Under the pieces are notes generated by a model that made no database searches, had not been told where the DNA came from, and was given only the letters and a program-made list of their open reading frames with translations. Made by a program: the position numbers and the translations under genes. DNA of 64,000 nucleotides from Acidobacteria bacterium Mor1 (lineage in GTDB: Bacteria; Acidobacteriota; Polarisedimenticolia; Polarisedimenticolales; Polarisedimenticolaceae), in contig CP011806.1 in assembly GCA_001664505.1 (NCBI GenBank), positions 512,610 to 576,609 on the forward strand, in the 5' to 3' direction. Numbering within the stretch: position 1 is the first letter of the stretch; every line of letters starts with the position of its first letter. Positions 10,589 to 33,579 of this stretch are shown here, piece after piece.

Positions 10589-10825
10589 ATGGACGGCGAA
10601 ACCCGAAATCTTCAGAACGACTTCTTCAACAACGCAAGAAAGGAGCGTTCTACGGTGACGGTGTTCCTGTCCAACGGCAAGAAGCTGACCGGGCGGATCA
10701 AGTCCTTCGACAAGTTCACCCTGCTGCTCTCGGGGCAGTACGGTGATCAGATGATCTTCAAGCACGCCATCTCGACGGTCAGTGCGGGTGGCAGCCGCGA
10801 GTCCCGCGGCGAGAACGACTCCTAG
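10589..10825 (+). CDS. hfq: RNA chaperone Hfq
   Basis: A 78-residue Sm-like protein that binds sRNAs and mRNAs as a hexamer. [12 protein letters not shown] and the Sm1 region ([19 protein letters not shown]) lead to the Sm2 motif FKHAISTV. The tail is short and acidic/polar ([11 protein letters not shown]), without a long disordered C-terminus. AGGAGG precedes the ATG by 7 nt. Its TAG stop (10823-10825) shares the palindrome CTAG with the stop of the convergent PilT-like gene. Confidence 0.95.
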
Positions 10826-12324
10826 CGGCGGAAGAAGCCTCTCCGCTCGGCGCCGGACTCGCTGGCCGGTGCCTGGCGCACGCCGCTGGTGCCGCTTCCC
10901 GACAGATCGCGAATGCGGGCGTTGAGCCGTTCGATCTTGGCGTCGTACTCCTGGCGGATCACCTGGAGCTGCTTCTTGTAGCGGTCGTTTTCCGCGCGCA
11001 GCTCACTGACCTCACCCTCGTCGACCACCGCCTGCTGGGCCATGCCCGCGCCCGAGGCCTCGGTCAGTTCGGTGCGTAGGCGGTCCATTTCCGCCTCACG
11101 CTCGGCCATCTGGTTGCGGTGGGTCTCCTGGAGCTCGTCGTAGGCCTTCTTGATTTCCTGGAGCTCGAGGATCTTCGAGTAGTCGCTGTACGGTTCGGCC
11201 ATGGAGGAGTCCTCTCCGCCGGTCTGACCGCCGAACGCGAGTTTGCGCAGGAACAGGTCGAGGTCGGCTGCGTTGTTGCTGGCGTTGAGCGCGGTCTCCC
11301 GGGTGATCTGCCCGTGGACCACCAGCGCCGCCAGCGACTGATTCATCGACTGCATCTTGTGGTAGGAGACCGAGCCTTCGATCTCCTCGTTGAGGCCGTC
11401 CAGGTTGCCCTCGACGATCAGTTTCGACACCCGCGGGGTGTGGCGCAGGATCTCCAGCGCCGCGACGAGGCCGCTGCCGTCGGCCCGTTCGACCAGGCTG
11501 TGGCAGACCACCGCCTGGAGTACCGAGCTGAGCTGCTGCCGGATCTGCCGGTGGCTCTCGGCGGGGAACGCATCGATGATGCGGTCGATGGTCTGGGCGG
11601 CGCTGTTGGTGTGGAGCGTGGAGAAGACCAGGTGGCCGGTCTCCGCCGCGGTGAGCACCGTCTGCATGGTGTCCCGGTCGCGCATCTCGCCGACCATGAT
11701 CACGTCGGGGTCCTGGCGCAGGGCGTTGCGCAGGGCGTGGCTGAAGCTCGGCGTGTCGGTGCCGACCTCCCGCTGGCTGACGGCGCCCTTGGCGTCCTTG
11801 AGCAGGAACTCGATCGGATCTTCGATGGTGATGATGTGGGCCAGCCGGGTGTCGCTGATCAGCTTCATCAGCGCCGCCAGGGTCGAGCTCTTACCCGAGC
11901 CGGTGGGTCCGGTGATCAGCACGAGCCCCTGGGGCAGGTCGGCGAAGGTGTTGAGCACCGGCGGCAAGCCCCACTCGTCCAGCGAGGGGAACTGGAAGGG
12001 GACTCTGCGGAAGACCGCTCCCAGGTGGCCGCGCTGGTAGAACACGGCGCCGCGGAAGCGGCAGACGCCCGGGAGGCTGTAGCCGAAGTCGACGGCCAGC
12101 TCGTCCTCGAGGGTCTTCTTCATCTTGTCGGTCAGGAGCGACCCGACCATCTCATTGAGCTTCTCCGGCGGCAGCGGCTCCGATTTGAGGGGCAACAGCT
12201 TGCCCTTCAGCCGGATAAGCGGCGGACGCATCGGCTTGAGATGGAGATCCGACGCCTCCTGCTTCGCGGTGAAGCGCAGCAGATCGTCGATCTTGGCGAA
12301 CGTACCCGTAGCGTTGGAACCCAT
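10822..12324 (-). CDS. PilT-like twitching ATPase with C-terminal coiled coil
   Basis: The start at 12324 (GAGG 6 nt upstream) gives 500 residues, about 130 longer than a normal PilT. The N-terminal PAS-like ASDLHLK segment, Walker A GPTGSGKS (139-146), the Asp/His boxes and Walker B-like VIMVGEMRD (~208-216) place it in the PilT/PilU retraction ATPase family. The C-terminal PilT motif AIRNLIRE is only loosely matched ([16 protein letters not shown]). After residue ~380 a heptad-rich coiled coil runs to ~480, ending in a basic tail. No other type IV pilus gene is adjacent. It could be a regulatory PilU-like paralogue. Confidence 0.85.
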
Positions 12325-12438
12325 TGATTGCCTCGGAAAAGCGGCCAATCCGAATGTAGTGACCGGGCCCTCGGGAAGTCAATTTTGCCCGGTTTCGTGG
12401 ACGCAACGGCCGAATCAGGGCTATCCTGCGTCCCCACC

Positions 12439-14871
12439 ATGGACCCCACACCCAAGCTGGATCTGGACCGGGACACCCGGTTGGCCCTGGAGTTCGACGA
12501 ACTCCTCGACGACCTCGCACTGCGCACCCGTAGCGCCCTGGGGGCGGACCATATCCGCGCCCTGGAGCCCCTGGCCTCGGTGGAGGCGGTTCGCCGGGAG
12601 CAGGAACTGGTTTCGGAACTGCTGCGCTTGTTCGAGCAGGGGGGCAAGCTGATCCGCGGCGGGCTGCCCGATCCCCGGGAGACCCTGCGGACCCTCTCGG
12701 TTCAAGGCGCCCGGGTCGATGCCAAGGAACTGCGGGCTCTGGCGGCGGTGCTGGTCACCGTCGGCGAACTGCGGGAGCAGCTGGGCAACCTCGAAGAAGG
12801 GGAGTATCCCAGGCTGGCGGAGCTCTCCGGCTACCTGCCGGATCTGCGGGGCGAGGCGCGGCCGGTTCTGCGCCATGTCGACAGCGAGGGCCGGCTGGAG
12901 GACAGCGCCAGCCCCGAGCTGCGGCGGATCCGCTCGGAGACCGGCAAGATCGGCAGCCGGCTGCAGCGGATGCTGACCGGCATGCTGCGGGATCCCGAAG
13001 CCGAGCCGGTGATCCAGGATGACTTCATCACCCAACGAAACGGGCGCTACGTGATTCCCGTGCGGGTGGACACCCCCCGGCCCCTGGAAGGGATCGTTCA
13101 CGCCAGCTCGTCGTCGGGGGCAACCCGCTTCGTCGAGCCGTTGGAGACGGTGGAGCTGAACAACGACCTGGTGCGGCTGGCCGAGGAGGAGCGGGACGAG
13201 ATCCAGCGAATTCTCGACGGCTGGTCCCGGGCGCTGCGGGTTCGCCTGGACGAGGTCGGCGAAGGGATCGAGCGGATCGCCGAGTTGGACAGCCTGCAGG
13301 CCCGGGCGGTCTTCGGCCGGGATGTGGAGGGGGTCGTGCCCCGGGTCGACGAGCAGGGCATTCTCGACCTCAGGGAGGTGCGGCATCCGTTGCTCGACCG
13401 CCGGCTCAAGGAGATCGGGTCGAGCTGTGTGCCGCTGACCCTGGCGCTGGACCCGGCGGACCAGGTGCTGGTGATCTCCGGGCCCAACACCGGCGGCAAG
13501 ACCGTGGCGCTCAAGACCCTGGGCCTGGCGGTGGTCATGGCCCAGTCGGGGATCCCGGTGCCGGCCCGGGTGGCGCAGCTTCCGCTCTACCGGCAGCTAC
13601 GCGCCGACATCGGCGACCACCAGTCGATCGACGCGGACCTCTCGACCTTCTCGGCCCATCTCCAGGCGGTTACCCGCTTCCTCGAGGAGCGGGAATCGCC
13701 GGCGCTGTTCCTGTTCGACGAGATCGGGTCGGGCACCGAGCCCACCGAGGGGGCGGCGCTGGCCCGGGCGATTCTCGAGGAACTGCGCGTCCCCGGAGTC
13801 ACCGTGGCGGCGACGACGCACCAGCGGGCGCTCAAGGCCTGGTCCTTCACCCAGGAGGGCGCGGTCAGCGCCGCGATGGAGTTCGACACCGAGACCCTGC
13901 GTCCGACCTACCGGGTGCTGATCGGGGCAGCCGGCGTTTCGGCGGGCCTCGACATTGCCGAGCGTCTGGGCGTGCCGCGCCGGGTGGTGGATCGGGCGCG
14001 CGGGCTGCTCGACGAGGGGGACGCCGCTACCGAGGGTTATCTGGAAAGGCTCCGTGAGCTGGCCTCGGCCCAGGAGGAGGCCAAGCGGCAGTGGGACGAG
14101 AAGCTGCTGGAACTCGAGGAGCGCGAACGCAAGCTGCGGGCGAAGCTGGACGCCGACCGGGAGAAACAGGCGGCCGAGGCGGCCAGGCGGCTGGAGAAGG
14201 GGCTCGAGGAGTTCCGGCGGGAGGCCCGGCGCCAGCTCGGAGACGTGCGCGACGCCAAGGAGCGGAGCCGGCTCGAGCGCAAGGTCGGCCGCGCCGAGCA
14301 GAAGCTCGTCGGCGAGCAGCGCAGGCAGCAGGCGGAGCTGGCGCCGGAACTGAACAAGCCGGCTCCCGACGGCGGGCCGCTGGACGCCCCGCCGGAGCCC
14401 GGGATGCAGGTCCACGTACAGACCCTGGGCAGGACCGGGGAGGTCAAGCAGGTCCGCGGCAAGCAGGTAGACGTGCAGCTCGGCGTGATGACCTTCGCCG
14501 TCGACGTGTCGGACCTGAGGCGCCCGGCGGGCGGTGCACCCCAGGGCGCTCAGGCCGGGGGTAAACCCGCCGGGCGGAAACCGCTACCCATGCGCAAGAC
14601 GCCGGCTGCCGAACCCGAGGGCAGCGATCCCTCCCAGGAGATCAAACTGTTGGGGATGACCGTCGAGGAGTCCCTGGCCGAACTGGACCGCTTCCTCGAT
14701 CGCACCGCCATGGCCGGATTCTCGATCGTGCGCATCGTGCACGGTCACGGTACCGGGCGCCTGCGGGACGGGGTGAGGCGGTTCCTGCGCGGACACCCCC
14801 ACGTCGAGTCCTTCCGCAAGGGGGATTCTCACGAAGGAGGGGATGGGGCGACGGTGGTCACCCTGCGCTAG
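12439..14871 (+). CDS. mutS2: MutS2 family ATPase with Smr domain
   Basis: An 810-residue protein with the MutS core and clamp, Walker A GPNTGGKT at ~348-355, the FLFDEIGSGTEPTEG Walker B/signature, a long charged coiled coil (~530-640) and a C-terminal Smr nuclease domain (~735-810) containing HGHGTGRLRDGV. MutS2 suppresses recombination and, in several bacteria, acts on collided ribosomes. The ATG at 12439 is chosen because the protein then begins at the family's usual N-terminus; no strong ribosome binding site is seen. It is divergent from the PilT-like gene. Confidence 0.93.
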   Translation: MDPTPKLDLDRDTRLALEFDELLDDLALRTRSALGADHIRALEPLASVEAVRREQELVSELLRLFEQGGKLIRGGLPDPRETLRTLSVQGARVDAKELRALAAVLVTVGELREQLGNLEEGEYPRLAELSGYLPDLRGEARPVLRHVDSEGRLEDSASPELRRIRSETGKIGSRLQRMLTGMLRDPEAEPVIQDDFITQRNGRYVIPVRVDTPRPLEGIVHASSSSGATRFVEPLETVELNNDLVRLAEEERDEIQRILDGWSRALRVRLDEVGEGIERIAELDSLQARAVFGRDVEGVVPRVDEQGILDLREVRHPLLDRRLKEIGSSCVPLTLALDPADQVLVISGPNTGGKTVALKTLGLAVVMAQSGIPVPARVAQLPLYRQLRADIGDHQSIDADLSTFSAHLQAVTRFLEERESPALFLFDEIGSGTEPTEGAALARAILEELRVPGVTVAATTHQRALKAWSFTQEGAVSAAMEFDTETLRPTYRVLIGAAGVSAGLDIAERLGVPRRVVDRARGLLDEGDAATEGYLERLRELASAQEEAKRQWDEKLLELEERERKLRAKLDADREKQAAEAARRLEKGLEEFRREARRQLGDVRDAKERSRLERKVGRAEQKLVGEQRRQQAELAPELNKPAPDGGPLDAPPEPGMQVHVQTLGRTGEVKQVRGKQVDVQLGVMTFAVDVSDLRRPAGGAPQGAQAGGKPAGRKPLPMRKTPAAEPEGSDPSQEIKLLGMTVEESLAELDRFLDRTAMAGFSIVRIVHGHGTGRLRDGVRRFLRGHPHVESFRKGDSHEGGDGATVVTLR

Positions 14872-14904: not shown

Positions 14905-15351
14905 CTAGCTTTCCGCTTCGTCCTCGGCTCCGTTCTCGCCGAAGACCTCGAGCCAGTAGGCGACATCATCTTCCCGCTCGGGCTTTTCCCCCTTGCCCAT
15001 CCGCGAGAGGCGCCGCCGGAAGTCGCCGCACCGTTCGACCCGGGCGCCCAGGTAGCGGCATTGATCGCCCAGGGCGCGGTCGTCGGTGACCACGATCCAG
15101 CCGCGAACGTCCTTCTCCTCCCGCAGGATCGAGAGGATCCGTGCGTCGGCGCTCCGGCCGTGCCCGGAGTAGTGCACGTCCTTGCCGCTGCCGCCGGGAG
15201 GCTCCGGGCCGTCGAACACGATCACCACCCGGCGCCGCTCGTGGCGGGCGAAGCGCTGGAGTTCGAAGGCGAGGTTGCGCCGTTCGGGAGCGGAACGCTT
15301 GCGGCCGCGCCAGGTGCCGAGGAGGTTGTCGCCGTCGACGAGGCGGGGCAT
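14905..15351 (-). CDS. YacP-like NYN-domain ribonuclease
   Basis: The 148-residue protein begins PRLVDGDNLLG, the acidic NYN/PIN active-site start. VVIVFDGPE and IVVTDDRALGDQC supply the other conserved acidic residues. Family members resemble Rae1/YacP, ribosome-associated mRNA endonucleases of the PIN-like superfamily. It is the last gene of a four-gene minus-strand operon, starting 4 nt after the PATAN-J-TPR gene stop. A GCCCGG/CCGGGC hairpin (14883-14898) without a T-run lies between it and convergent mutS2. Confidence 0.75.
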   Translation of the reverse strand: MPRLVDGDNLLGTWRGRKRSAPERRNLAFELQRFARHERRRVVIVFDGPEPPGGSGKDVHYSGHGRSADARILSILREEKDVRGWIVVTDDRALGDQCRYLGARVERCGDFRRRLSRMGKGEKPEREDDVAYWLEVFGENGAEDEAES

Positions 15352-15355
15352 CGGG

Positions 15356-16819
15356 TCAGCCGCGGAACAGGCCGCGCTTCTTGGGCGAGCCTTCCAGCGC
15401 GCTCAGGGCGGCGCCGGCTTCCAGGTGGCCGGGCTCCCAGTTGAGCACCTCGCGGAACTTGGCGGCGGCCTGATCTTCCCGTCCGGTCTTGAGGTACAGG
15501 TTGCCCATGGCCATCAATCCCCGGGTCGACGAAGGCTCGAGGCCCAGGGCGCGTTCGAGATGTTCCTCGGCCTCGCCGCGCAGGCGGGGGTTCTGGGTCT
15601 TGACGATGGCGATCTCGACGTGGAAGTCCGCCTGGGAGTCGTCCATCTCGATGGCGTTCTGGAGGAAGGTCAGGGCGTCTTGCCAACGCTTGCGGTCGGC
15701 GAGCTCCTTGCCGCGGAGGAAGTTCTGCCGGGCCAGGTAGCCGCTGTCCTGCGCCGCAGGCTGATTGGCCTGCTGCTGCTGTTGCTGCTGGGCGTGGTCG
15801 TAGATCCGGCGCGCTTCCGGGTCGACCAGGGTGTTGTAGGCCAAGGTCACTTCGGAGAAGAACTGTTCGACCTGCTCCAGCAGATCCTGCATTTCCCCGG
15901 AACGGAAACGGTCCGGGTGCATGCGGCGGGCGAGCTGGTAGTAGGCTTCGCGGATCCGGTCTCTCGGCGTCTCCTGCGCCACGCCGAGGAGTCCGTAGTA
16001 GTCGACATCCTCGGCCCGGTGGAGCCGCGACAGCACCTCTTCGCGGGTGACCGGTCCCTGGTCGACATGGGCCGCGGTTTCGGCGGCCTTCTTGGGCTTG
16101 GCGTGGCGCAGCACGCCGAGAAGCATCAGCGTGTGGAGGGTCCGGAGGACCGGCTCGGACCCGCCCTCGAAGCCGTTGACCATCTGCGACACGCTGTGGC
16201 TTCCGTCAGCCTGTTCGACCAGGTGTCCGAGAGCGGGGGAGTCGTCGAGACTTTCCAGCAGCCCCTCCCGTTCGCTCTCGAGCTCGATGCGCTTGTCGGC
16301 GCGGCCGAGCGCCGCGCGGACTCCGTCGGCCTTTTCCGGAAAGCGAGCGGTGTGGAAGGCCACCGCCGCGGCGGCGGGTACATCGCAGAGAATCTCCGCG
16401 CCGAGCCGGGCCTTGCCTTCTTCGAAGGTGTACTCGCCGTCCTTCCATTCGAGGGTCGACGAGAGCAGCTCCTGAAGTTGCCGGCCGCGCAACTCGCGGA
16501 TCTCGGGGCCGGGAAGGAGCCCCGAGGCCAGGAGTGCCGCCGAGAACGGAATCTTGTCGTTGTCGGCCCGTTCGGCGCAGCTCTGCTTCTGAGCCTCGTC
16601 GATCCGGCCCTGGGCCACCAGGTACTCGGCGAGTTGCTCTTCGAGCACGTTGGACATGGCAAAGACCAGCCGTCCCCGTTCCATGCAGAAGACCCGCTTG
16701 AGTTTGACCCGGCTCTTGGCCTTGGGGTTCAGCGGCTTGAGCGCCGTCAACACGCCCGAGCGGTTCTCGGCGGCGTGACCGGCAAGCAGGTCGGCCAGCG
16801 CCCAGGAGCCGCGCTTCAC
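15356..16819 (-). CDS. PATAN (DUF4388) - J domain - TPR fusion protein
   Basis: GTG at 16819 overlaps the upstream stop in GTGA and gives 487 residues; a longer frame reaching 16858 lies inside the previous gene. Residues ~5-240 resemble a DUF4388/PATAN module (LADLLAGHAAENRSGVLTA, then ELLSSTLEWKDGEYTF). Residues 273-342 are a J domain with the essential HPD tripeptide at 301-303. A polyglutamine run (345-351) follows, then TPR-type helices to the end. J domains stimulate Hsp70 ATPase and PATAN domains mediate protein interactions in motility signalling. There is no signal peptide, so it is cytoplasmic. Its role is unknown. Confidence 0.8.
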   Translation of the reverse strand: MKRGSWALADLLAGHAAENRSGVLTALKPLNPKAKSRVKLKRVFCMERGRLVFAMSNVLEEQLAEYLVAQGRIDEAQKQSCAERADNDKIPFSAALLASGLLPGPEIRELRGRQLQELLSSTLEWKDGEYTFEEGKARLGAEILCDVPAAAAVAFHTARFPEKADGVRAALGRADKRIELESEREGLLESLDDSPALGHLVEQADGSHSVSQMVNGFEGGSEPVLRTLHTLMLLGVLRHAKPKKAAETAAHVDQGPVTREEVLSRLHRAEDVDYYGLLGVAQETPRDRIREAYYQLARRMHPDRFRSGEMQDLLEQVEQFFSEVTLAYNTLVDPEARRIYDHAQQQQQQQANQPAAQDSGYLARQNFLRGKELADRKRWQDALTFLQNAIEMDDSQADFHVEIAIVKTQNPRLRGEAEEHLERALGLEPSSTRGLMAMGNLYLKTGREDQAAAKFREVLNWEPGHLEAGAALSALEGSPKKRGLFRG

Positions 16820-18111
16820 CGGCGGCCCTCTCTCAGGCTGCGATCCCAACGCCGGCAAACGGCGGCATAGTCTTCGTTGAACACCCGCAGCAACGCATCG
16901 TCCATACCCTTGCCCTCTCCCAGGTAGTCGAGGACGTCGATCAGCACGTCGAGGCCGCGCCGTTCGGCGAGGTGGTTCGTCAGCGACAAGGCGATCGGGT
17001 AGGAGAACTCACCGTGCTGCTCCCACTCGGCGGGTTTGCCCTGGTTCAGGCGGTCGATCGCCTCCAACCGGGTCTTCTCGCCGGCCTCGCGCCCCTCCAT
17101 CATCTGGGCCAGCCCCTCGTGGAGCCAGCGGGGGCAGTTGCCCCGGGTCTTGGAGTGGATGAAGGCGTGGGCCAGCTCATGGGTCAGCACGGCCCGGGCC
17201 GGGGCGTTGATCGAGCGGAGGCCCCCCAGCGGCACCCGGATCTTGCCGTCGTAGAGCCCACCGACACGCTCGTCGGCCTGGGTCACGTCATGGAAGGTCT
17301 CGCGGGGAAAGAGCTGCACGGTGATCGGCTGGGCCGGCGCGTGACGGAACACCCGGGCCAGTTCCCAGTAGGCTTCCTCGAGATGCTCCATCACGGCGAA
17401 GGCCAGATTCTCATCGACCTCGGCGTCGTAGCGCAGGTTGAAGTGGGAGCTGGCGGAAAAGGCGTAGTCCCGTCCGGCGCTCAGCTCTCGTTCGGCCTTC
17501 TGGATCTTCTCGGCGAGCCGGTCGTGGGGAGACAGCTCGTGGGCCCGGCGCCAGGACTCCAGCGCGTCTTCGACCCGCTCTTCGCGATTGCGCAGGTCGC
17601 CCAGCACCTCGTGGAACTGCGGGTTCTTGTCGTTGCGGGCCAGGCCGTCGAGGATGACCGACAGCGCCAGGCTGTCCCGGTCCCGGGCCATCTCACTGAG
17701 GGCGTAGCCGACCCGGGCGGCGCCGAGATCGGGGTCGAGGCGCAGCGCCTCGAGAAAGTAGGACGCCGCCAGCTCGAAGTCCCGGGCGTCCAGCTTGGTC
17801 TTGCCGTTCTCGAACGCCTCGACCGCCTTGTTGCGGGCGTCCTGATCGGCGGCCCGGGCCGAGCGGCGGCGCTGCTGGGCCACGTCGACCACCGCGTAGC
17901 GGTAGTCGACGGCCTCACGGTGCTCGACCATGACCAGCATCGATGAGGGAATGCCCACGACGCCGGCGCGGCTCTCGTACATCAACTTGTCGCTCTCGAT
18001 CCACCAGTCGTCGACCTCGATCTTGCGGCCGCCTTCCAGATGCAACACGTCCGCCGGGGTCGGGCCGGACATCGCGAGCAGGCAGAGGAGCAGGGCGGCG
18101 GCGCGGATCAA
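16816..18111 (-). CDS. Secreted TPR protein with peptidase-MA-like HExxH domain
   Basis: TTG at 18111 overlaps the upstream stop in TTGA and gives 431 residues starting with a signal peptide (IRAAALLLCLLAMSGPTPA). TPR-like helices occupy ~90-210. The C-terminal half contains LTHELAHAFIH and then WLHEGLAQ, the HExxH plus downstream Glu arrangement of gluzincin-type Peptidase_MA-like proteins. Zinc-dependent proteolysis in the periplasm is likely but no substrate is known. It overlaps both neighbours by 4 nt, so expression with the SPOR-like and PATAN-J-TPR proteins should be coupled. Confidence 0.75.
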   Translation of the reverse strand: MIRAAALLLCLLAMSGPTPADVLHLEGGRKIEVDDWWIESDKLMYESRAGVVGIPSSMLVMVEHREAVDYRYAVVDVAQQRRRSARAADQDARNKAVEAFENGKTKLDARDFELAASYFLEALRLDPDLGAARVGYALSEMARDRDSLALSVILDGLARNDKNPQFHEVLGDLRNREERVEDALESWRRAHELSPHDRLAEKIQKAERELSAGRDYAFSASSHFNLRYDAEVDENLAFAVMEHLEEAYWELARVFRHAPAQPITVQLFPRETFHDVTQADERVGGLYDGKIRVPLGGLRSINAPARAVLTHELAHAFIHSKTRGNCPRWLHEGLAQMMEGREAGEKTRLEAIDRLNQGKPAEWEQHGEFSYPIALSLTNHLAERRGLDVLIDVLDYLGEGKGMDDALLRVFNEDYAAVCRRWDRSLREGRR

Positions 18112-18722
18112 GGCAGGAGTCCGTCGATCTGTCGCGGCTGCGGGCCTTCGCCGAGGTTGGATTGAAGTGCCGCCGGCAGCCGGTCCGCCGCGGCGCTGTC
18201 CCGGTCGGGGTAGGTGCCCCAGCAAAGCCGGAAACAGGTGCGATCGCCGATCTCGGCGGGAATCAGGTGCAGGGCGTCGTCATCGCCGGCGGAGGCGAGC
18301 AGCCGGGCGACGTTGCGGGTGTCGCAGGCAACGATCAGTTGGAGGGTCCAGTCGCCCGTATGGCTGCCCAGCCGCTCCACGTCGTCGTGCATGCGCCGGG
18401 ACCAGTCCGCCGGATCCACCTCGGCAACCGGCTCGACCCCCGAGGGCACGCCGGGCGCCTCGTCGGGCGTCGCAGCGTAGGCCTCGCCGGGGGCGGCGGG
18501 CTCGATGCTTGGCTCCGGAGTTCCGGTCATCTCGGCTGCGTCTCCCTGCTCGCTTGGGCCGGGTCCCGAGGGGTAGAGCGGGTCGCCGCTCGGATCCGCC
18601 TGAAGGAACCAACCCACCAGGACCAGGGCGATGACCGCTCCGGCGAGCCCGGCGGCTCGGATCAAGCGGGAGCGTTCGTCCTGGTCGACATTCTTTCCCT
18701 TGCCGCGGGATTTGGGGCTCAT
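18108..18722 (-). CDS. Membrane-anchored protein with SPOR-like C-terminal domain
   Basis: The 204-residue protein has a Lys/Arg-rich N-terminus, one membrane segment at ~23-40 (AAGLAGAVIALVLVGWFL), a Pro/Glu-rich linker and a C-terminal ~80-residue domain. In that domain WTLQLIVACDTRNVARLL and CFRLCWGTYPDRDSAAA match the two-repeat pattern of SPOR peptidoglycan-binding domains. The expected topology is cytoplasmic N-terminus with the SPOR-like domain in the periplasm. It is the first gene of the operon with the peptidase-MA, PATAN-J-TPR and NYN genes. The SPOR assignment is by pattern only. Confidence 0.6.
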   Translation of the reverse strand: MSPKSRGKGKNVDQDERSRLIRAAGLAGAVIALVLVGWFLQADPSGDPLYPSGPGPSEQGDAAEMTGTPEPSIEPAAPGEAYAATPDEAPGVPSGVEPVAEVDPADWSRRMHDDVERLGSHTGDWTLQLIVACDTRNVARLLASAGDDDALHLIPAEIGDRTCFRLCWGTYPDRDSAAADRLPAALQSNLGEGPQPRQIDGLLP

Positions 18723-18834: not shown

Positions 18835-19551
18835 TCAGCGAATCAGGGTGAAACACCGGCTCCAGCGCGAGCGGAAGGGCAGGTGGGTGACCTTCTCGAA
18901 GATCGAGCCGACGGTCTCGCCGACGCTCCGGGGCTGGCGGCTGTCCTGGCTCTCCTCCTCGTAGGACCACCAGATCAGGAGCGCCCGGCCCTTGACCAGG
19001 TGCCTGGGCACGAACCCCCAGCGGCGGCTGTCCGAGGAGCTGTTGCGGTGATCTCCCATGACCCAGTAGTGCCCGTCGGGGACCCGCTGGGCCGAGAACG
19101 AGGTGTTCGCCGGGTGGTACCGGTAGGCGTCGCTGACGTAGGTCTCGTCCATCCGCTCGCCGTTGACGTAGACGTAGCGGCCCTTCTGCTCGACCAGGTC
19201 GCCGGGGAGGCCGATGACCCGCTTGATGTAGTCGATCTCGGGCTCGTCGGGATGCTTGAACACCACGACGTCCCCTCGCCGAATGTCCCGGGTCGGCAGG
19301 ATCCAGTCCTCGAAGGCGGTGGCCGTCGGCGAGTAGACGAAGCGGTTGACCATGATGTAGTCGCCGACGAGCAGCGTGTCTTCCATCGATCCGCTGGGGA
19401 TCTTCGACTGCTGGAAGACGAAGGCCCGGGAGAAGATCACGAACATCACGCAGACGAGGATGGTCTCGGTGTAGTCCCGCAGCAGGCTCTTCTGCGGTTC
19501 TTCCGCCTTGGCCTTGGCGGCGTCTTTGTTCGGCTCTTTGTTCTGGGCCAC
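18835..19551 (-). CDS. lepB: Signal peptidase I
   Basis: Removes signal peptides from exported proteins at the outer face of the inner membrane. The 238-residue protein has a charged cytoplasmic N-terminus, a membrane segment (~29-46) and the serine/lysine dyad: IPSGSM with catalytic S55, and DYIKRVIGLPGD with K110. GDHRNSSSDSRRWG is the conserved box E. The single membrane anchor and short length match the common non-enteric type. It is the last gene of a ggt-LOG-lepB operon, 2 nt after the LOG stop. Confidence 0.95.
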   Translation of the reverse strand: MAQNKEPNKDAAKAKAEEPQKSLLRDYTETILVCVMFVIFSRAFVFQQSKIPSGSMEDTLLVGDYIMVNRFVYSPTATAFEDWILPTRDIRRGDVVVFKHPDEPEIDYIKRVIGLPGDLVEQKGRYVYVNGERMDETYVSDAYRYHPANTSFSAQRVPDGHYWVMGDHRNSSSDSRRWGFVPRHLVKGRALLIWWSYEEESQDSRQPRSVGETVGSIFEKVTHLPFRSRWSRCFTLIR

Positions 19552-30949: not shown

Positions 30950-31054
30950 TTGGCATCAGGGAGTGTCTCGAATAGGCGGGCGCCCCCGCCCATGGCTTAG
31001 GCACGAAAACAAGCCGGACCCGGTCTGCGCCCAGTGGTTCGGTGCGGTGGTTCC

Positions 31055-32580
31055 ATGCGCACTGTAGCGAGTCCTCAAACCGCCTCGACGACACGATCCG
31101 ATGTCGATCGCCGGCGGATCCTGCTGGTCGAGTCCTCTCCCGCGGCCCAGAGCATTCTGCGCGGTGAGCTGGAGGCCGAGGGTTACGAGGTCAAGGTTCT
31201 CGATGATCCGGAGAAGGTCGCGTCCGCGGCGGTGGAGGGCAGGCCGGATCTGATCCTGCTGGATCCCGCCAACGCCGGGTTCGACCTGGTGCGCCAGATC
31301 AAATCGTCCCAGGAGACGATGGAAACCTCGGTCGTGCTGCTCTCCACCCGGACCGAGGTCGCCGACAAGATCGCGGCCTTCGACTCCGGGGCCGACGACT
31401 ACCTGACCAAGCCGTACTTCTCGAAAGAGCTCCTCGCCCGGGTTCGCACCCGGTTGCGGGTCCGGGATTCCCTCGAGGCCAGCCGGCAGCTGAGCAATCA
31501 GTACGTCGAGATGCTGTTCGGCATCGGTTCCGCGATCACCTCGGTGTTCAAGCTTGACGACGAGGTCGAGATCCTGCTGCGCCAGGCGCTGGTCGGCGCC
31601 GGCGCCCACTGCGGTTCGGTGTGGCTGGTGGACAAGGGGGGGCGCAACCTCCAGGTCCGCGCGGTCCAGGGTTATCGGGACGGCGGTCCCAGCGTCGACG
31701 ACACGCTGCCCCTGGGGGCCAAGATCCCGGCGCTTACCGGCGCGGCCGACGATACCCCCGTCGAGATCCGGCTCTACGAGGACCGGGAAGCCCGCACGGT
31801 GTTCGTGCCGATGGTCGCCCGGGAACGGCTGGTCGGCGGAATCGAGATCCAACCCCGGGAATCGGCGCGGCGCTTCAGTCCGATGCAGCAGAAGATGCTG
31901 TTCGGCCTGGCCTCCCAGGCGGCGATCTTCATCGAGAACACCCGCCTGGAGCGGGAAGTCCGCTCGATGTTCCTCAACATCATCGTTTCCCTGGCGGGGG
32001 CGGTCGATGCCAAGGATGCCTACACCCACGGGCATTCGTTGCGGGTTGCCCGCACGGCGCTGATCGTCGGCCGGGAGATCGGGCTGCCCCGGGAACGGCT
32101 TGAGCCGCTGCTGATGTCCGCAATCCTCCACGACGTGGGCAAAATCGCGATTCCTGACGAGATCCTTCAGAAACCCTCACGACTGACCGATGAGGAGTTC
32201 GAGGTGATGAAAGGGCATGCCAAGGCCGGGGCCAAGATGCTGGCCCACATTCCCGCTCTCGGGGAGGTCATTCCGGGAATCCGGAACCACCACGAGGACT
32301 GGGACGGTGGAGGCTATCCCGACGGCCTGGCCGGGAGAGATATCCCGGAATTCGGCCGCATCATCCTGATCGGCGACGCCTTCGACGCCATGACGACCGA
32401 CCGGGTATACCGTTCGGGCCGGCCGGTGTCGGCGGCGATGGAAGAGATCCGGCAGGGCAGAGGCACTCAGTTCGATCCCGATCTTGCTGACGCCGTGTGG
32501 TCCGCCTACGAACAGGGTAAGATTCACGAGTCCATGCCCCAGCACACGCCGGGGATTTACGAGTTGATCGAGCAAATTCA

Positions 32581-32584
<4 letters not shown>
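31055..32584 (+). CDS. Response regulator with REC-GAF-HD-GYP domains
   Basis: A 509-residue protein. REC (residues ~21-135) has phosphoacceptor D70 and K119 in YLTKPY, but its acidic pair is VESS rather than VDDD. GAF spans ~150-300 and HD-GYP ~305-500, with ILHDVGKIAIP and HHEDWDGGGYPDG. HD-GYP enzymes hydrolyse cyclic di-GMP. ATG 31055 is chosen over GTG 31034. Its stop overlaps the following REC-PATAN gene by GTGA, so the pair is one signalling unit. No histidine kinase is adjacent. Confidence 0.92.

Positions 32585-33575
<991 letters not shown>

Positions 33576-33579
<4 letters not shown>

Follow-up and report, generated by a model that had tools for sequence, protein, structure and literature searches.

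We have identified an apparent operon of four coupled genes, conserved within the Acidobacteriota, that encodes a membrane protein with a SPOR domain, a Peptidase-MA/TPR protein, a PATAN-J-TPR protein, and an NYN RNase, and that appears to be undescribed as a module. The operon lies within the window, by which we mean the whole 64,000-nucleotide stretch analyzed here (positions 512610–576609 of a single-contig genome of 5.985 Mb). Homologues from named organisms assign the window to the Acidobacteriota. By analogy with cyanobacterial systems, we tentatively favor the view, as possible rather than probable, that its products form a scaffold, anchored in peptidoglycan, by which DnaK and an RNase would be brought to a machine in the membrane; the type IV pilus motor is the likeliest such machine.

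Organization of the Operon

Examination of the sequence and of its open reading frames placed the four genes on the minus strand at 14905–18722. The first of them in the downstream order is the SPOR-slot gene (18108..18722), whose 204-residue product, P0004, has a transmembrane segment (TM) and a C-terminal SPOR domain. It is followed by the gene for the Peptidase-MA/TPR protein P0003 (16816..18111; 431 residues, TTG start), by the gene for the PATAN-J-TPR protein (15356..16819; 487 residues), and by the gene for the NYN RNase P0001 (14905..15351; 148 residues), a YacP/Rae1-like protein of the PIN fold. The stop codon of the SPOR-slot gene and the start codon of the peptidase gene share the sequence TTGA (18108..18111, minus strand), and the stop codon of the peptidase gene and the start codon of the PATAN-J-TPR gene share the sequence GTGA (16816..16819, minus strand), both as read directly from the sequence. 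From the second overlap we assign the GTG at 16819 as the start of the PATAN-J-TPR gene, which is in turn separated from the NYN gene by a gap of 4 nucleotides (15352–15355). Thus, all of the open reading frames, both overlaps, and the gap of the four-gene operon reported in the preliminary description are present, and the domains that it assigned to the products are borne out by Pfam, by family profiles, and by conserved catalytic and HPD residues. Its division of the products between the two sides of the inner membrane likewise stands as a prediction, with the topology drawn from a simple hydropathy scan.

The neighbors on either side are syntenic, and we have left them out of the module. 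Upstream is the gene for signal peptidase I (LepB; 18835..19551, minus strand), which is possibly co-transcribed with the four genes. Two tandem signal peptidase I genes precede the module in three same-order relatives (L042, L079, and L080) where the window has one. Farther upstream on the same strand are genes that we assign, from their sequence, to a LOG-like protein and a gamma-glutamyltranspeptidase. Downstream, mutS2 (12478..14871, plus strand) converges on the operon, and beyond it lie a gene for a PilT/PilU-family pilus ATPase (10822..12348, minus strand; TIGR01420, 414 bits), which is outside the operon, and, on that same side, the gene for MiaA.

The PATAN-J-TPR Protein

The N-terminal region of the 487-residue protein (about 16406–16801) matches the PATAN/DUF4388 profile with 36.3 bits against a Pfam cut-off of 25, and the same profile matches 12 of 13 orthologues. 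Next come a J domain (about 15797–16003), which scores 55.4 bits for DnaJ against a cut-off of 27.8, and a set of TPRs (about 15401–15718), which are also over the Pfam cut-off. The HPD motif of the J domain (about 15911–15919) is invariant in all 13 orthologues; J domains that bear HPD stimulate Hsp70. An AF2 model of the protein (mean pLDDT 89.9) displays an N-terminal β sheet interrupted by a helical insertion, along with helices resembling a J domain and an array of TPRs. The N-terminal region had been called PATAN-like, an assignment that both the profile score and the modeled sheet with its insertion uphold. When the model was compared with the PDB using Foldseek, the TPR part alone was matched among the matches listed. 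The restriction of such matches to TPR parts, here and for the peptidase described below, means that the PATAN and peptidase folds gain no structural support from this comparison.

The combination of PATAN, J, and TPR domains had also been considered unusual. This proved not to be so. PATAN-J-TPR homologues are spread throughout the Acidobacteriota, and a search of genome contigs with an alignment as the query revealed single-chain REC-PATAN-J-TPR fusions, with the receiver in front, in Myxococcota (L107) and in Desulfuromonas (L116). What is unusual is the four-gene module and not the fusion itself.

The SPOR-Slot Protein, the Peptidase, and the RNase

P0004 alone has no match in Pfam. A profile built from its family, in contrast to the single sequence, matches the solved SPOR domain of DamX (2LFV; E = 9.4e-10), the only solved SPOR domain that it matches, and the homologue L161 scores 23.1 bits for SPOR in Pfam against a cut-off of 21. 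The domain itself (about 18108–18356) is C-terminal, follows a linker, and contains two conserved cysteines, C133 and C163. A hydropathy scan detected a single hydrophobic span ahead of it, at residues 20–38 (about 18609–18665), and, by hydropathy only, one such span before SPOR in all 14 relatives scanned. SPOR domains bind peptidoglycan that has been stripped of stem peptides and that is enriched at the septum (PMC6895207). Within the class, the protein that occupies this slot is often larger (580–830 residues), with an N-terminal PATAN domain and a proline-rich stretch ahead of a single TM and the SPOR domain at the C-terminus. In many relatives it is predicted from hydropathy to be a bitopic protein with PATAN and SPOR on opposite sides of the membrane. 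The SPOR protein of the window's own order has no PATAN part, so that PATAN is found there only in the J-TPR protein. Two further features were seen near SPOR genes: in family f28 (L194, L195, and L200) a second SPOR-type protein is encoded directly downstream of PATAN-SPOR, and in several members of the class (L045, L053, L064, and L077) a gene that looks, by eye, like that for L-aspartate oxidase (NadB) adjoins the SPOR gene divergently.

P0003 consists of an N-terminus of the secretion type as judged by eye, a small β domain, TPRs, and the gluzincin motif HELAH (residues 311–315, about 17167–17181) with a downstream glutamate, E332. Its N-terminus is visibly hydrophobic, yet the hydropathy scan does not score it above threshold. 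Similarly, P0003 scores 27.5 bits for Peptidase_MA_2 (PF13485), under the cut-off of 32.4; the profile is matched by all 16 members of the family, with a best E of 1.8e-12, and H311, E312, and H315 (HExxH) and E332 are invariant in all 16. A Foldseek comparison of the AF2 model with the PDB brought out no solved structure related to the peptidase portion, the TPRs alone appearing among the matches listed.

P0001 matches NYN_YacP with 40.5 bits against a Pfam cut-off of 24.6, and its family profile matches the solved YacP/Rae1 structure 5MQ8 (E = 1.2e-11). Residues D6, N9, D47, D69, and D91 are invariant in all 25 sequences. Rae1 is an endoribonuclease that acts at the ribosomal A site (PMC6613710). 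In a tree of NYN sequences, which has a midpoint root and some long branches, the module-linked proteins, with the exception of that of G083, fall on one side of a branch with support of 98/96, and unlinked Aminicenantes-type proteins fall on the other. The NYN protein in the module slot of G083 (L045) belongs to the other branch. This hints at a replacement in place, which the midpoint root and the long branches lead us to treat as a lead only. In the Aminicenantes-type families, the NYN gene located 5–6 kb from PATAN-J was not counted as part of a module, given its opposite strand, the intervening genes, and its separate NYN branch.

Conservation of the Module

All four genes, in the same order, are present in each of seven relatives from the same order (L039, L040, L041, L042, L079, L080, and L174). 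In all seven, both the SPOR/peptidase and the peptidase/PATAN-J junctions are 4-nucleotide overlaps, and the nearest NYN start lies 4–23 nucleotides after the PATAN-J gene. The preservation of gene order and of both overlaps in these relatives indicates that the arrangement is not due to chance. More widely, the succession SPOR, Peptidase-MA, PATAN-J is kept in most genomes of the class. Counting matches above E cut-offs, in a set of genomes most of which are drafts, we found the SPOR and peptidase genes adjacent in 24 of 33 genomes that have both (13 families) and the SPOR and NYN genes within 3.5 kb of each other in 21 of 34 (10 families). The rough chance level for either proximity is about 0.2% per genome. 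Outside the class, PATAN-SPOR adjoins the peptidase gene in G025, G020, G005, G061, and G059; NYN comes immediately after it in families f11, f35, and f30; and it is followed by PATAN-J and then NYN in families f48 and f65. In many lineages at least one of the four genes is missing. The preliminary description had proposed the module from a single genome, and its recurrence in the seven same-order relatives and in further families of Acidobacteriota sustains that proposal.

At the level of whole genomes, the co-occurrence of SPOR and NYN is weakly significant (p = 0.009) and is confounded by ancestry; it is therefore adjacency that constitutes the real evidence. An apparent coordinated loss of the whole module in G141 was set aside, as MutS2 and LepB are also unmatched there and an assembly gap is equally likely, and the absence of the module from G173 was set aside likewise.

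A Further PATAN Protein, Encoded Next to dnaK

Several further PATAN proteins are encoded in this genome. One of them (G000 C1:778777–780111; L210:4778–6112) is a PATAN-TM-T2SSG protein, whose C-terminal type II secretion protein G domain scores 26.0 bits against a cut-off of 21, and its gene lies about 90 nucleotides upstream of dnaK. A homologue is present in all 32 genomes of the class. The operon itself does not contain dnaK; rather, in 24 of the 24 class loci examined, dnaK adjoins this different PATAN gene, which is directly upstream of it. This adjacency independently ties PATAN to Hsp70 and to a domain of the pilus/type II secretion type.

Possible Functions of the Module

In the scaffold that we tentatively favor, the predicted binding of the SPOR domain would hold the complex where peptidoglycan is denuded, at the septum or at young poles, and PATAN domains on the cytoplasmic side would dock onto a membrane machine, with the type IV pilus motor as the most likely one. 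The J domain, through its HPD motif, is predicted to bring DnaK to load or remodel this machine, while the TPRs of the same protein would hold the client. As guesses, the secreted-type peptidase might trim or clear a periplasmic partner, and the NYN RNase, recruited to the membrane, might cut mRNA locally so that synthesis matches assembly.

The pilus motor is the leading candidate because of analogies with cyanobacteria, where PATAN regulators bind PilB1/PilC (PMC12288463; PMC7690835) and where DnaK1, the J-TPR protein DnaJ3, and GrpE interact with active type IV pilus motors (PMC9239167). DnaJ3 is thought to send Hsp70 to the membrane machine, the same motor on which the PATAN regulators act. 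The operon described here differs in that its J-TPR portion is fused to PATAN and comes with three coupled partners (a SPOR anchor, a peptidase of the secreted type, and an RNase), and in that it contains neither dnaK nor a pil gene. The gene for the PilT-family ATPase, two genes off and behind the convergent mutS2, belongs to the general synteny, and pilM and pilB of this genome are about 175–200 kb from the module. PilB-family ATPases are near-universal in the Acidobacteriota, and hence co-occurrence with PilB can neither test a link to the pilus nor separate the pilus from the divisome.

The divisome is at the center of the main rival explanation, which we consider somewhat unlikely: that the module is a septum-linked regulator in which SPOR would mark septal peptidoglycan and PATAN would contact the divisome, timing division or envelope remodeling. 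Consistent with this idea, SPOR domains recognize denuded septal glycan (PMC6895207), and DamX, the only solved SPOR match, is a division protein. Moreover, PatA binds ZipN and SepF, and Z-rings are stronger in a patA mutant (PMC7380572); it follows that PATAN alone does not imply a type IV pilus. On the other hand, no division genes were recognized around the module in those loci that were read, and a divisome factor would not ordinarily be expected to have a J domain and an RNase. Rather unlikely, in our judgment, is the role in envelope proteostasis or translation quality control suggested in the preliminary description; in such a role, DnaK and a Rae1-like RNase would act jointly at the membrane on stalled or misfolding secretory proteins and the peptidase and SPOR anchor would clear failures outside. 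A J domain with HPD, a YacP/Rae1-like nuclease, a protease, and an upstream gene for signal peptidase I would all suit such a role, but the association of LepB with the module is not a fixed one: several members of the class have a gap of several kb or a different neighbor there. Furthermore, f11, f30, and f35 carry NYN and PATAN-SPOR without a J protein or protease at the site, and the functional precedents that we found for PATAN and J-TPR proteins point instead to either the motor of type IV pili or the divisome.

Those same families f11 and f35 provide the argument for envelope signaling, in that genes for PATAN-SPOR, NYN, and an ECF sigma factor stand in a row on the same strand (L184/G002, L187/G064, and L188/G042). 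PATAN-SPOR would then sense the state of the wall, and NYN, with the sigma factor in some lineages, would alter transcript levels. We regard this as improbable, since the ECF gene is found in two families only and there is none at the window's locus. Finally, NYN and its neighbors might have stayed together merely through a conserved MiaA-PilT-MutS2-LepB block, and the flanks of the module are indeed conserved in the order and in parts of the class. This is very improbable and is largely refuted by the persistence of SPOR-NYN and SPOR-peptidase adjacency in families with unrelated flanks and by the conservation of the 4-nucleotide overlaps.

We also hold as doubtful the proposal that these proteins constitute a categorically new transenvelope system, having its own secreted protease, in which a SPOR-PATAN scaffold that reads peptidoglycan would bring Hsp70 and an mRNase to one membrane site. 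If so, local folding, mRNA decay, and the state of the cell wall would be coupled. If the recruiting scaffold that we prefer is real, it would represent a conserved way, in a poorly studied phylum, of bringing a chaperone together with an RNase to a site that the cell wall defines. PATAN/DUF4388, a widespread domain of little known function, would then gain a genetic link to Hsp70 through both the PATAN-J fusions and the adjacency of PATAN-T2SSG and dnaK. Were the RNase and the peptidase to prove central, the module would be of a new kind, beyond control of an envelope machine by chaperone and PATAN. A concrete and testable set of partners is now named for a group of envelope proteins that otherwise have no annotation.

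Relationship to Known Systems

The operon had been singled out as a candidate for an undescribed system, and no description of the four-gene set was found in the full-text literature that can be searched, a scope outside which most subscription papers fall. Within that literature, DUF4388 is named in a single paper, on nitrite reductases, and PATAN, DnaJ, and TPR are mentioned together, but treated apart, in a single review of cyanobacterial pili. Each product nonetheless has known counterparts. P0004 resembles SPOR proteins of the DamX/FtsN type in having a TM and a SPOR domain with detectable homology to that of DamX; it differs from them in its operon partners and, in many relatives, in the PATAN domain beyond the TM. 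The putative RNase shares membership of the NYN_YacP family and invariant acidic residues with Rae1/YacP, but whereas rae1 of B. subtilis is co-transcribed with yacO, the NYN gene here accompanies PATAN-SPOR or PATAN-J-TPR. P0003, with its HExxH motif and downstream glutamate, is similar to members of the Peptidase MA superfamily (PF13485) that contain TPRs, from which it is set apart by an extra N-terminal β domain and by its coupling to a SPOR protein.

The PATAN/DUF4388 domain is shared with the PATAN response regulators PixG, PixE, LsiR, and PatA. Unlike these, the PATAN-J-TPR protein of the window lacks a receiver domain, having J and TPR domains instead, and in many relatives its partner is a membrane-spanning protein with SPOR. 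A REC-PATAN response regulator is encoded elsewhere in the window (32581–33579), and its gene overlaps the end of the gene for a protein with a receiver-like start (31034–32584).
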